Source: a virus. Taken from it: a stretch of 23,949 nucleotides of DNA. Within the stretch, counting starts at the first letter, position 1; the number at the start of each line of letters is the position of its first letter. This document shows, one piece after another, positions 5,357 to 23,949 of the stretch. The notes beneath the pieces were generated by a model. That model did not search any database and was not told the DNA's origin. It saw nothing but the letters and a program-made list of their open reading frames with translations. The translations under genes were made by a program, and so were the position numbers. The stretch is taken from positions 1-23,949 of the IMG/VR virus record IMGVR_UViG_3300027747_004780; one strand, 5' to 3'.

Positions 5357-5429
5357 TGCGTAATAGCTCAGTCGGTAGAGCAGGCGGCTGTTAACCGCCG
5401 GGTCCTAGGTTCGAGTCCTACTTGCGCAG
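5357..5429 (+). tRNA. tRNA-Asn (anticodon GTT)
   Basis: A 73-base cloverleaf can be drawn by eye: acceptor TGCGTAA with TTGCGCA (one G-T pair), D-stem GCTC/GAGC, anticodon stem GGCGG/CCGCC with loop CTGTTAA, a five-base variable loop, and TTCGAGT in the T-loop. The T-stem CTAGG/CCTAC has a C-C mismatch at its outer pair. The discriminator base is G; the CCA end is not encoded (followed by CAA), so the host must add it. GTT reads AAC and AAU Asn codons. Confidence 0.9.
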
Positions 5430-5454
5430 CAAAGACGAAACGAAAGAGGAGAAA

Positions 5455-5705: not shown

Positions 5706-5792
5706 GGAAACGTGACCGAGTGGTTTAAGGTGCCACCCTGGAAAGGTGGTGTGGTCGCAAGGCCACCAGAGGTTCGAATCCTCTCGTTTCCG
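5706..5792 (+). tRNA. tRNA-Ser (anticodon GGA)
   Basis: An 87-base class II tRNA: acceptor GGAAACG/CGTTTCC, anticodon stem CCACC/GGTGG with loop CTGGAAA, a long variable arm GTGGTC-GCAA-GGCCAC typical for Ser tRNAs, T-stem AGAGG/CCTCT with loop TTCGAAT. Discriminator G; CCA is not encoded. GGA reads UCC and UCU Ser codons. Confidence 0.93.
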
Positions 5793-5798
5793 CCCCGG

Positions 5799-8445: not shown

Positions 8446-8550
8446 GAACACTAAGTATTCTTCAGGGTGTACAAGCGTCATCTCAGTGTCTACTGTATCT
8501 GCAATGCTAATCGTCCATCTCAGTACGGTTCGAAACGTCAGTGCAATGTC

Positions 8551-9381: not shown

Positions 9382-9723
9382 ATGAACCAGATGAAGAAGA
9401 CAAAGAAGACGCCGTCGAAGAACTACAATCGCAGCATGGATCTCCCGAACGTGGTGGACATGGACACCCTCGCTTACGCCACGGACGAGGAGCTGGATCG
9501 TCACCATTCGTACTTGCACAACGAGCGTGAGCGTGCCGCTCGATTCGACTACGACTTTCGTCCGTGGGACGACGAGATTTGCTACGTGCAGCGAGAGATT
9601 CAGATCCGGACTTCACGTCGATTCGCCCACGAACGTTTCCTTCGTTCGAATCCCGATACGAGCAACTTCGTCGGTTCACACAGCAACGATGCTGGCGATC
9701 TCGATGGATCGAATCTCAACTGA
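9382..9723 (+). CDS. Hypothetical protein (113 aa)
   Basis: ATG 9382 is preceded by AGAGGA at 9369-9374; GTG 9364, overlapping the stop of the previous gene, is an alternative. The protein has a Lys-rich start (KKTKKTPSKN), then a charged, aromatic-rich helical part (DEELDRHHSYLHNERERAAR and FDYDFRPWDDEIC, about 35-70) and a Ser/Asn/Asp-rich tail. Not recognised. Its 3' end overlaps the likely start of the sigma-factor gene. Confidence 0.6.
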   Translation: MNQMKKTKKTPSKNYNRSMDLPNVVDMDTLAYATDEELDRHHSYLHNERERAARFDYDFRPWDDEICYVQREIQIRTSRRFAHERFLRSNPDTSNFVGSHSNDAGDLDGSNLN

Positions 9724-10582
9724 AAGAACCTTGGACGACATCAACCTCAACGAAGAGGACGACCTCGAAATGATTGCTTCCAAAAAGATTGGCTCAGAGA
9801 GCGGTGACACGATCAGCGCTTACCTCAACGACCTGAAGATGTATCCTCAGCTGAAGCACCCTGAGGTAGTGAGCCTCTTTCAGACCTATGAGGCGGGCGG
9901 AAGCCCGGCTGAAAAGGCTAGGAAGAAACTCATCGAGTCGAACCTTCGTCTCGTCATCTCCATCGCGAAGAAGAACAAGGGTCACAACATTCCGCTTGAG
10001 GACCTGATTCAGGAAGGCAACCTCGGTCTCCTCAAGGCGATCGAGCGCTTCGACTGGAAGAAGGGCTTCCGATTCTCCACGTATGCAACGTGGTGGATCA
10101 AGCAGGCCATCAGCCAGCACGTCCTGAAGCGCAAGAGGATGATTCGCCTTCCGGCCCACGCCGCAGGAATCCAGCGAAAGCTGGCTGCGGCTGCTGCCGA
10201 ATTCCGTGAGATGACGGGAGCTGAGCCTACGCAAGAAGACCTGCTCGCGCTCGTCGACGCTTCTGAGACTGTTGTCAAGGCGACGATGGCGTCTGGTCAC
10301 AACGTCATGTCCCTCAACCAGACGCTGTCAGCCGATCCCGACAGCGGTACTCTTGAGGACAAGATCGAGGACACGGATCACCGCAACGACCCGTTCTACA
10401 ACGTCTCTTCGAAAGAACTGATGGGCATTGTCCGTTGTGTACTTTCGAATCTCACCGACAAGGAGTCGGCAATCCTGAAGCTCAGGTTCGGTCTGTTCGA
10501 CGATTCTGACATCGATCGCTCCGAATACAAGATCACGCCTGCTGAAGTCACGGGACTTGAGTCAGGACTTCCTCTTGTTTGA
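9704..10582 (+). CDS. Sigma-70-family factor lacking region 4.2
   Basis: A 292-aa RNA polymerase sigma factor. Region 1.2 is near DTISAYLNDLK (35-45). Region 2 (about 72-146) contains the core-binding and -10-reading segments ESNLRLVISIAKKNKGH, DLIQEGNLGLLKAIERFD and FRFSTYATWWIKQAI. Region 3 covers about 150-205 (RLPAHAAGIQRK). Region 4.1 is seen as LTDKESAILKLRFGLFDD (250-267), but the protein then ends after 25 unrelated residues and lacks the -35-binding helix-turn-helix (region 4.2). No lost domain was found in other frames just downstream. Alternative starts: ATG 9689, or ATG 9770, which has AGAGGA 10 bases upstream. It overlaps the previous gene. Confidence 0.9.
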   Translation: MDRISTERTLDDINLNEEDDLEMIASKKIGSESGDTISAYLNDLKMYPQLKHPEVVSLFQTYEAGGSPAEKARKKLIESNLRLVISIAKKNKGHNIPLEDLIQEGNLGLLKAIERFDWKKGFRFSTYATWWIKQAISQHVLKRKRMIRLPAHAAGIQRKLAAAAAEFREMTGAEPTQEDLLALVDASETVVKATMASGHNVMSLNQTLSADPDSGTLEDKIEDTDHRNDPFYNVSSKELMGIVRCVLSNLTDKESAILKLRFGLFDDSDIDRSEYKITPAEVTGLESGLPLV

Positions 10583-10584
10583 AC

Positions 10585-10812
10585 ATGACGCTGTACGAAG
10601 CAACATCTCTCTTGCTGGGAATCTTCAACTCTGCGCTTGCTATCATCGTCTTGCGCAGGGTCAAAGGACTCGAACTGCTCGTGGCGAATGTCGTTAGGAC
10701 GCAGGTCGAATCTGCAAGGAAGAGAAACACGGAAGACCTCACGACGAGACTCGATCAACTGCAGTCAATGAGATTCTCCCCCTTGGGCAGAATCCCCGCC
10801 TCCAAAGAGTGA
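10585..10812 (+). CDS. Small membrane-anchored helical protein
   Basis: A 75-aa product from ATG 10585; a TTG at 10579 that overlaps the sigma-factor stop (TTGA) is an alternative and lies 12 bases after AGGA. Residues about 3-24 (ATSLLLGIFNSALAIIVL) form one membrane helix, followed by a basic amphipathic helix that may be a coiled coil (VANVVRTQVESARKRN). It lies between the truncated sigma factor and the HTH protein. Function unknown. Confidence 0.65.
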   Translation: MTLYEATSLLLGIFNSALAIIVLRRVKGLELLVANVVRTQVESARKRNTEDLTTRLDQLQSMRFSPLGRIPASKE

Positions 10813-10820
10813 AAACAGCA

Positions 10821-11114
10821 ATGAAGAAACAAGCCAAGTCGTCTATTTATGCAACCGTCGCCGTCGAAGAAGGCGTCAATTATCGAGAGATCGCCGACAT
10901 GATGACGGAGATCGGGTTCAAGATGAACCACTCTTCGGCAAGGAACTACGTACTTCGAGTGATGCGAAAGTTTGCCGATGCGATCACGAAGGAGTGGGAC
11001 ATCGACGTACCGGAACAGCGCATGGAAAAGATCGTGAAATCACCTCAATTTCAGCAAGCAATCTGCGACATCCTCCAGTCTCTCGAGGCGCAGACAGACA
11101 AGAGAAAGGAATGA
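10821..11114 (+). CDS. Small helix-turn-helix protein resembling sigma region 4
   Basis: A 97-aa protein; GTG 10809 overlapping the previous stop is an alternative start. Residues about 21-53 read NYREIADMMTEIG...NHSSARNYVLRVMRKFADAI. This follows the layout of a helix-turn-helix of the sigma region 4.2 type: a REIA-type first helix, a turn, and a recognition helix with SxARNYVLRxMRK, as in the ..R.RIRQIE..ALRKLR of sigma factors. The rest is helical and charged. Located two genes after a sigma factor lacking this domain. Small HTH proteins with this motif are, as I recall, common in marine phages. DNA binding is predicted, not shown. Confidence 0.75.
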   Translation: MKKQAKSSIYATVAVEEGVNYREIADMMTEIGFKMNHSSARNYVLRVMRKFADAITKEWDIDVPEQRMEKIVKSPQFQQAICDILQSLEAQTDKRKE

Positions 11115-12336: not shown

Positions 12337-12385
12337 AGAAATAACGCAGTGCAAAGCTGCGCTACGTCGAGGTAGTATTGAGGTC

Positions 12386-12595
12386 ATGAGGACGACACTG
12401 CTGGTCAGCCTTCTCATGACCTCGATCTTTTTGGGCACTGCGGACGCACAACAGGGGGCTTCTCGTTGCGCTGTCATGGAGGACCACGACGAGCGGATGA
12501 CGTGTTTCGCAGTCGTGACCCACAACAGTAGCTACTGTCACTTCATCAAGGACAATTCGAAGAGGTCGTGGTGCCACGTCCTCGTGGGGAAATGA
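12386..12595 (+). CDS. Small secreted Cys-rich protein
   Basis: A 69-aa protein with a clear signal peptide: MRTTLLVSLLMTSIFLGTADA, cleavage expected after ADA (residue 21). The mature part has four Cys (28, 40, 50, 62) in repeated patterns of the type C..M.D.DERM.C and C.FIKDNSKRSWC, as in short periplasmic proteins. Possible role: periplasmic lysis or host-interaction factor working with the transglycosylase encoded just upstream. Function unproven. The GAGGT at 12380-12384 serves as the ribosome site. Confidence 0.7.
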   Translation: MRTTLLVSLLMTSIFLGTADAQQGASRCAVMEDHDERMTCFAVVTHNSSYCHFIKDNSKRSWCHVLVGK

Positions 12596-16909: not shown

Positions 16910-17599
16910 TCAGTGTGTGCCGAGTGTCCACCAGTTTGTGCCATCACTTATCATGATGATCTGCGCATTGCTGCTTCCTCGTGCTGCCATGTTGAATCCC
17001 GTGGCAGCCGATACGATGGAACCCTGGTTGTCTAGCGTCCCGCCCGCCGCAAGAATCTTAGTTGACGTTGAGTTGGTGATGTTGTGGACGTAGTAAACAC
17101 GACCTGTATTTCCTACAGCATTTGGAAGGGTCACGTTGTAACCTCCCGAACCTCCGCAAAGAAGTACGCAGTCGGATGTCGTGGCGCTGTATGATCCTGT
17201 CAACGTTGTGACGGCCAAGATGTTTCCGTCGCCCGAACCAGACGGTCCCTGCGGGCCCGTGGGCCCGGTGGGACCCGTAATTGAAGGACCTGTATATCCC
17301 GTCGGCCCTGTTGCACCTGTCGGTCCCTGTGGACCTGTGTAACCAGTGGGTCCCTGTGGACCAGTGTAACCTGTCGGTCCCTGTGGACCAGTGTAACCAG
17401 TGGGACCTGTAGGTCCAGTATCGCCCGTCGGACCCGTGGGGCCTGTTGCACCTAATGAACCGCTTCCGAGAGAAGCAGGAGAATAGATGGATATTGACCC
17501 TCCTGAAGAAGAGAAAATCTGTACGGAGCCAGAAGCGACGAGATAGGACTCGCCACTTGACAGTTGGGTGAGAGACCCAGATAACGAACCGTGTCTCAT
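16910..17599 (-). CDS. Short collagen-like fibre protein
   Basis: A 229-aa protein in three parts. Residues 4-41 ([20 protein letters not shown]...) are one copy of the 37-residue repeat found three times in the neighbouring fibre gene. Residues 50-121 are collagen-like Gly-X-Y triplets rich in GPT, GDT, GYT and GPQ. The C-terminus (about 125-229) is beta-rich and resembles phage fibre tips ([32 protein letters not shown]). Collagen-like repeats in phage fibres form triple helices and probably make a stiff rod. It is the last gene of the fibre cluster. AAAGG about 11 bases upstream is a moderate ribosome site. Confidence 0.85.
17237..17452 (-). repeat. Collagen-like coding repeat, 27-base period
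   Basis: Inside the 16910-17599 gene, the sequence repeats with a 9-base triplet period and a 27-base higher period; the block containing CCTGTGGACCAGTGTAAC occurs several times. Encodes GPQGPTGYT-type units. Confidence 0.8.
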
Positions 17600-17641: not shown

Positions 17642-19042
17642 TCAGACAATTATCCATCGCTCCGGAGATGCCTCTATCTTTATGACTGTCAGAGAGGAAT
17701 AGTTAACTGATGGCAACTTTACAGCCGAAGAGCCGTCGATATTTCCCACAGAAGACGACAATTCTTGGGGCCCTACAGATCCTGCATTACCTGTCATGTC
17801 TTTGAACACGATGTTTGTGCCTACGGCGGCACTGTGGGGGAGCACGCCTGTCACGTCGTTGACCATGAACACGACTACCTGATCACTTGCACTTACGTTG
17901 TAAGTCGGAGACGTGTTCACGTTGGTTACAGACAAGAGACTTGACTGAGACGGTGCGTACACCGTGACAGCCCCATTCGACGCTGAAGTTATCTGCACCG
18001 CGCCGGATGCAATGAGGTACGAGGTGCCATTCGAAAGGTGAGTGAGAGAACCGCTGATTCCGCCTGTTACCGTAAGCGATCCTGTCATCTCGAACGCGTC
18101 GCCCGAGATGACCGCAGACGACCCTGTCACTTGAAGATTTGCAACAGACAGGGTGCCTGACGTGTAGGTCAGTCCAGCGTCTCCTGTGAATACTCCAGAA
18201 GAGTTGAACTGCACCTGACCGGTGGAACCGCCGGGCGCGCCTCCGTCCGACGACACGAGAACCTGTCCCGTCGAAGAAGTGATGATCGTGATGTTGGACC
18301 CTGCGACGAGGTAGGACTTTCCGTCAGTCAGTCTCGTGAGAGAGCCGCTGATTCCGCCCGTCGCAGAGACCGTACCTGTCACTTCAAGAGAGTCGCCCAA
18401 GACTTCGAATCCGGTCGCGACAAAGGATCCGCTTACGACGACGTCGCCGCCGAACAGCGACTTACCTTCGTTTGTCGACGAAGAGCCGCTGACGTAGAAG
18501 AAGACGTCGGTTCCCTTGTTCTGGGGAGACGTTATTCCCTCGTTTCCTACCATTGCCAGAGATCCTGTGGAATTCAGGATGCCTGCTGAGGGCGATGCGA
18601 AGTAAGCCAGAGAAGGTTGCGCAGAGATTGTCACCTGGCCGTTGGAGGCCGAGGTCACCGTGACTGAGTTCCCTGCGACGATGTACGAACTCCCGTCCGT
18701 GAGACGTGTGAGAGAGCCGCTGATGCCGCCCGTCGCAGAGATCGTACCTGTCATCTCTAAGGAGTCGCACAAGATGTCTACTGAGGCGGAGACGACAAGC
18801 ATGTCCCCCGAATTGTCGCCGATGTATGTGTCTCCGTCAACGAACAACGTTCCCGAGACCACGGTCGTCCCACCAAACACGGATCTCTCCGTGGTCGAAC
18901 CGGACACGAAGAAGGTGACGTCGGTCCCCGGCATCGGCGGGAACTCATCGCCTGGCTCGTTGGCAAAGATCACGCTTCCTGTGATGCCGATTCGACTTGA
19001 TCCCTCAGAGGAACCAGATATGTTGTTCGTTACTAGGGCCAT
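17642..19042 (-). CDS. Tail fibre protein with 37-residue repeats
   Basis: A 466-aa Ser/Thr/Gly/Val-rich protein without Cys except one (residue 92), a typical fibre composition. Three copies of a repeat beginning GGISGSLTxLxxGxSYLxA and ending in strand pairs such as TSASNGQVTIS are at residues 105-141, 229-265 and 327-363. A second repeat, GTDVxFFVSGS...FGG..VVSG, occurs at 39-64 and 177-205. The C-terminal 90 residues (YNVSASDQVV..., ..IVFKDMTGNAG, ERWIIV) resemble the beta-rich end domain common in phage fibres. Probably a structural subunit of an appendage used for receptor binding. Confidence 0.82.
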   Translation of the reverse strand: MALVTNNISGSSEGSSRIGITGSVIFANEPGDEFPPMPGTDVTFFVSGSTTERSVFGGTTVVSGTLFVDGDTYIGDNSGDMLVVSASVDILCDSLEMTGTISATGGISGSLTRLTDGSSYIVAGNSVTVTSASNGQVTISAQPSLAYFASPSAGILNSTGSLAMVGNEGITSPQNKGTDVFFYVSGSSSTNEGKSLFGGDVVVSGSFVATGFEVLGDSLEVTGTVSATGGISGSLTRLTDGKSYLVAGSNITIITSSTGQVLVSSDGGAPGGSTGQVQFNSSGVFTGDAGLTYTSGTLSVANLQVTGSSAVISGDAFEMTGSLTVTGGISGSLTHLSNGTSYLIASGAVQITSASNGAVTVYAPSQSSLLSVTNVNTSPTYNVSASDQVVVFMVNDVTGVLPHSAAVGTNIVFKDMTGNAGSVGPQELSSSVGNIDGSSAVKLPSVNYSSLTVIKIEASPERWIIV

Positions 19043-19101
19043 GGACTTTTCTGTTTCGCTCCCCTATGTCGCCATAAGTATCTTCTCTCAGACTTTCTTC
19101 A

Positions 19102-22549: not shown

Positions 22550-23949
<1,400 letters not shown>

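Follow-up and report, generated by a model that had tools for sequence, protein, structure and literature searches.

The window analysed here, meaning the whole stretch of 23,949 bases, is a virus record without close annotated relatives. It carries a cluster of genes that opens with a member of the sigma-70 family and continues, on the same strand, with a small spacer ORF and two further genes whose products we designate P0002 and P0004 (Table 1). A search with the sigma protein returned 80 viral loci and a search with P0002 returned 36, giving 109 loci in all. Record ends aside, the genes for sigma, P0002 and P0004 have identical order and strand in every one of these loci. The sequence of the spacer ORF is poorly kept among relatives, with 24 matches vs 109 for P0002. 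P0004 has a conserved N-terminal domain (LxDLLRRRKTxLxxFLxExGIxTYExLxxRCxSMGVxPP), an SSPTEGVVVL motif and a basic, lysine-rich tail, and yielded no match in family libraries, a PDB profile search or phage records.

Table 1. Positions of genes and motifs in the 23,949-base window
Feature	Position	Strand	Remarks
Sigma-70 family protein, regions ~1.2 to 4.1	9704-10582	+	292 aa
Sigma tail Y-x-I-T-x-x-E ... G-x-x-L	C-terminus of the 9704-10582 product		replaces region 4.2
Small variable spacer ORF	10585-10812	+	hydrophobic N-terminus, charged C-terminus
P0002, HTH-like	10821-11114	+	97 aa; constant neighbour of the truncated sigma
P0004	11119-11607	+	162 aa; third conserved gene of the cluster
GTGCAAA-N17-TAGTAT	12349-12378	+	promoter-like; ATG of the ORF at 12386 lies 7 nt behind
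TACTTA, late-type	8452-8457	-	ATG of a lysozyme-like ORF 12 nt downstream; no -35
TACTTA, late-type	19075-19080	-	upstream of a tail-fibre-like ORF with its ATG at 19042
tRNA-Asn gene	5357-5430	+	
tRNA-Ser gene	5706-5794	+	
Long collagen-like GDTGPxGPT repeat protein	22550-23947	-	runs off the window end
Further GxTGPTG-type repeats	16910-17599	-	

The sigma-like product of the window matches the Pfam model Sigma70_r2 above its cut-off (E 3e-22), and this domain of core binding and -10 recognition was found in all 63 members of the family. Against PHROG_351 (E 2e-51), residues 37-270 align with positions 469-700 of 928. Pfam Sigma70_r3 is matched by 61 of the 63 members (best 1e-11; the window member, at 4e-4, falls below its cut-off), and the NCBIfam RpoD/RpoS models span region 3. 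When the family profile was compared with solved structures, the alignment to RpoD/SigA ran through the LRLRFGL segment of region 4.1 and stopped there; only positions about 1-22 of the Sigma70_r4 model are covered. The helix-turn-helix (HTH) of region 4.2 is absent from all 63 non-identical relatives, which are 55-82% identical, and from two far more distant sigmas (E 1e-64 and 1e-44). All of these proteins share one end point, 20-30 residues past LRLRFGL, mostly with the tail listed in Table 1. Since the relatives terminate at an identical point, a frameshift or assembly error was ruled out and the truncation is natural. The end point shared across loci points to a truncation that is ancient and selected. 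Pfam, PHROG_351, the structure-profile alignment and the relatives thus bear out the preliminary description of this gene as a sigma-70 protein with regions 1.2 to 4.1 and without 4.2.

We ran Pfam Sigma70_r4 over the whole records of relatives. This revealed, in five of the six largest sigma-bearing records (145-369 kb), a second small ORF that has only the 4.2 part of the model. The encoded protein, here named S4.2p, is about 85-95 residues long, contains a sigma 4.2 HTH and covers about 18-50 of the Sigma70_r4 positions (19-49 of 50 in matches at E about 1e-8, over the cut-off). Its profile finds region 4.2 of SigA/RpoD in the PDB and, more weakly, RpoH and WhiG. The consensus reads TCF...C-Q-R-K-x-C...N-C...GPxTLQEIGKIYGLTRMRICQIEKxIYxKIR, in which C26, C37, C42, C54 and the recognition helix TRMRICQIEK are invariant across 55 sequences; the four-cysteine protein is probably zinc-binding. 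The gene is flanked by a PIN/PhoH-like gene and a helicase gene (records G001, G002, G003, G005 and G006). S4.2p occurs in at least 201 viral loci, and the free-standing form was absent from the 50,697 phage records, cultured or deposited, that were searched. Within bacterial genome assemblies, the cysteine-bearing form appeared on four contigs only (L222-L225), which are probably mis-binned phage; their bins are assigned to Flavobacteriales, Halobacteriovorax, Methylococcaceae and Legionellales, and one contig measures 305,838 bases. Judged by homology, the missing region 4.2 is S4.2p, a separate protein encoded far from sigma in the genomes of relatives. The 24-kb window itself does not contain S4.2p, so its presence in the window's own phage is deduced from these relatives. 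The idea of a split sigma with a free-standing region 4.2 therefore holds, and the partner is this distantly encoded protein, not the neighbouring P0002 as first proposed.

Mapped on independent models, the two pieces complement each other, with a mismatch of a few residues at the joint. On TIGR02393, sigma covers positions 1-195 and S4.2p 194-226; the corresponding segments are 6-239 and 241-271 on TIGR02394, 448-672 and 673-703 on the MzaA model, and 469-700 and 692-724 on phrog_351. Co-occurrence was also searched from the S4.2p side, in 38 records. The truncated sigma is present in 13 of these, and P0002 in exactly the same 13. Among the S4.2p records of 187 kb or more, 10 of 11 have both, the exception being G019, a 205-kb linear fragment. 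From the sigma side, the one large record without S4.2p (G004) has a sample-mate, the 142-kb contig G021, that carries it. S4.2p was not found in seven smaller sigma records (49-114 kb), as expected because these records are fragments. The distant records G016 and G017 carry the truncated sigma, P0002, P0004 and S4.2p together. A full-length second sigma with a complete region 4 lies beside the split one in G006 (C1:132927-133580, minus strand). This is the only instance in about 25 records searched, twelve further ones with none being included in that number. Coexistence of a full-length sigma with the HTH protein had been named beforehand as evidence against a split; because the single example is an additional paralogue, the split is not overturned.

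Among the carriers, a Gp23 capsid (PF07068, E about 1e-64) is encoded by 13 of the 15 records searched, and the nearest known capsids, 42-50% identical, belong to Flavobacterium phage immuto and an uncultured 484-kb phage. The split-sigma carriers form a large lineage of uncultured jumbo phages with Gp23 capsids, within the T4 superfamily. G017 has a tandem pair of Gp23 capsid genes (C1:139350-142938). The T4 sliding clamp (PF02916) was found in none of the 15 records, in a search run without a positive control.

Two classes of promoter-like motif were found in these genomes. In the upstream regions of G003, GGTGCAAA shows a strong orientation and lies about 37 nt ahead of the ATG, and this motif is followed by TAnnnT at 20 sites with a spacer of 17 and at none with a spacer of 16 or 18. 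Across 1.6 Mb of other loci, the bipartite GTGCAAA-TAnnnT arrangement gave 61 distinct N17 sites vs 25 over nine other spacings, and whole records gave 110 vs 13 for the reversed pattern. A GTG(C/A)AA(A/C) variant in two soil genomes gave 23 sites at spacing 17 vs 0-2 at each other spacing. T-15/G-14, known from the extended -10, is frequent in the bipartite sites. These sites precede early-type genes; they lie before clusters of small genes and the DNA ligase gene, and in many relatives one lies about 1.0-1.25 kb before sigma. The first ATG falls 6-7 nt past the -10 in 64 of 94 pooled sites; transcripts would therefore begin on the start codon or right beside it, which suggests leaderless translation. 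The window site at 12349-12378 and dense bipartite arrays before small genes (G015, 59.0-75.6 kb; G018, 207.0-212.7 kb) are candidates for leaderless early transcripts. Upstream of the S4.2p genes, loci L121-L200 often show a palindromic element resembling CTTGTACA, placed about 20 nt ahead of a -10 similar to TATACC or TATCAT; this makes a third promoter-like arrangement.

The second class, TACTTA, prefers positions 20-29 nt before the ATG (31 forward vs 4 reversed) and sits in the structural region of G001 and G002. No information was found at -36 to -30 that would mark a -35 element with it. A promoter directly before gp23 in all genomes was not found; in most cases a short gap that holds a Shine-Dalgarno sequence lies before this gene, and G001 and G014 have TACTTA there. 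The T4-type late motif TATAAATA was also considered and is almost absent from G003. The preliminary description had assigned the separable -35 function to late phage promoters. This is not supported: TACTTA has no conserved -35, which contradicts such a role, and the sites that do have one precede early-type genes and the sigma operon.

Together, these observations suggest a sigma factor that is naturally cut between regions 4.1 and 4.2 and whose -35 reader, S4.2p, acts in trans, a reading to which we give a probability of roughly 60%. We infer that the two proteins act jointly, as follows. The sigma piece would bind host RNA polymerase via regions 2, 3 and 4.1 and read the -10, and S4.2p would dock beside region 4.1 at the beta flap and read the -35. 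Holoenzyme with S4.2p could use -35-dependent promoters, for which GTG(C/A)AA-N17-TAnnnT is the candidate, and holoenzyme lacking S4.2p could start from TACTTA, the late motif that has no -35. P0002 and P0004 would probably be co-regulators bound to sigma, the polymerase or upstream DNA. More tentatively, and at somewhat below even odds, domain 4 would be built from two chains such that supplying or withholding S4.2p switches between early-type (-35) and late (TACTTA) promoters. The reading of the GTGCAAA-type -35 by S4.2p is not established, because G016 and G017 keep an identical recognition helix and have neither GTGCAAA-type sites nor a spacing preference. Moreover, the sigma operon often lies behind a bipartite site, so an early promoter of the host holoenzyme would also fit; more generally, that enzyme could be what reads the bipartite sites, as early promoters. 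Two further points count against the joint action of sigma and S4.2p: their divergence correlates weakly (rho 0.31, vs 0.86 for sigma and P0002), and a fold search with the S4.2p model matched nothing.

The strongest competitor is an arrangement resembling that of phage T4, in which the gp55-gp33 pair is described as a 'split sigma', gp33 being the sigma4 mimic (PMC2988020). There, gp33 occupies the binding place of sigma domain 4, has no similarity to sigma4 and recognizes no DNA sequence, and the late promoters have no -35 (PMC2988020, PMC7892883). By analogy, the sigma of this lineage would act alone at -35-less late promoters with P0002 and/or P0004 in the place of gp33, and S4.2p would redirect the host sigma-70 holoenzyme early, as an independent appropriator or an anti-sigma at early promoters. 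The shared features are a sigma-like phage protein with an incomplete region 4, a second small protein, a capsid lineage of the T4 type and a late-type motif without -35 information. The genomic arrangement also fits, with P0002 and P0004 in the sigma cluster and S4.2p encoded elsewhere, as does the weak co-divergence of sigma and S4.2p (rho 0.31 over 13 records, a value that is uninformative for so short a protein). The gp33 entry in the PDB had no sequence match to the profile of P0002 or of P0004. However, unlike gp55, the sigma described here has kept regions 3 and 4.1, and keeping them would serve no purpose if nothing ever completed domain 4. S4.2p, unlike gp33, is a true region 4.2 homolog that includes the recognition helix. 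The exact complementarity of sigma and S4.2p coverage would also be left unexplained. We therefore regard a T4-like division of labor as unlikely, though worth weighing.

Less probable still is the original proposal that P0002 is itself the free-standing region 4.2 that completes sigma. P0002 adjoins sigma in all 109 loci and co-occurs with it in 13 of 13 sigma-bearing records, and its divergence closely tracks that of sigma (rank correlation 0.86, 13 records). The family has a near-invariant core, NYREIADxMTEIGFxMNHSSARNYVLRVMxKFA, and an AlphaFold2 model predicts four helices, including a short helix, turn and long helix (residues 21-30 and 37-58) at pLDDT >90, in agreement with the HTH first noted in this protein, one small ORF beyond sigma. 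The supposed resemblance of this HTH to region 4.2 was not upheld. Not one of the 59 members drew a sigma-family match from Pfam or PHROGs, whereas identical searches find S4.2p at 1e-8; HHalign gave a probability of 0.3% for P0002 against S4.2p, and genomes with P0002 already hold this genuine 4.2 protein. Over Pfam, PHROGs, NCBIfam, the PDB profile search, HHalign, Foldseek and VIA-align, P0002 produced chance-level or generic HTH matches (e.g., StbA and DosR) with insignificant structure-search scores, and its best viral match was an uncharacterised 72-aa phage protein. The AlphaFold2 model of P0002 had no sigma4 match, but the Foldseek search with the model of genuine S4.2p likewise matched nothing, so the fold search is powerless at this size. 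The P0002 family is not detectably a sigma region 4.2 by these comparisons; its alignment is poorly diverse (Neff 2.4), and a very distant kinship may therefore remain. Because of the strict co-occurrence and the tracked divergence, a functional link between P0002 and the truncated sigma is likely. The earlier suggestion that the two proteins act together is thus retained in part, with P0002 in a role other than that of region 4.2.

It is very improbable that the two pieces are relics, with sigma working on extended -10 or -10 promoters only and S4.2p serving as a stand-alone repressor with a borrowed HTH, a view consistent with the late-type motif without -35 and the frequent T-15/G-14 of the bipartite sites, since TRMRICQIEK is invariant in very distant members and the genes co-occur throughout the lineage, both of which speak for a shared role under constraint and not for a free repressor.

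Returning to the preferred reading of a sigma cut within domain 4, we compared it with other known systems. SigO-RsoA is a sigma-70 factor with its DNA-reading parts on two proteins, cut between sigma2 and sigma4 (PMC8103513). The phage pair is alike in dividing these parts between two proteins, but the cut here lies inside domain 4, so that one chain has regions 2, 3 and 4.1, and a long distance separates the two genes on the phage genome. Group 2 jumbo phages have a gp23 capsid, no RNA polymerase of their own and two kinds of sigma-like proteins, one of them 'minimal sigma factors' with a single HTH; the survey took these for distinct sigma types or for remnants of an ancestor, without describing a complementary pair (PMC7824862). 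The gp23 capsid, the lack of an own RNA polymerase and the two kinds of sigma-like protein, one with a single HTH, are shared with the present lineage, whereas sigma and S4.2p form a complementary pair here. Finally, the group 1-2 factors RpoD, SigA and RpoS, which are one chain in bacteria, can be aligned end to end with regions 1.2-4.1 of the phage sigma followed by region 4.2 from S4.2p; here there are two chains, and a four-cysteine domain precedes region 4.2.

Domain 4 of sigma normally is one folding unit, and the open-licence papers searched contained no sigma divided between 4.1 and 4.2 that keeps both pieces. A natural cut at this point, kept in a very diverse phage lineage, would make -35 recognition a detachable subunit. 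Such a split sigma would also connect the one-chain sigmas of cells with T4 gp55-gp33, in which domain 4 is replaced by an unrelated mimic. The two promoter-like motifs and the four conserved proteins (sigma, S4.2p, P0002 and P0004) form a set that is jointly testable in vitro.
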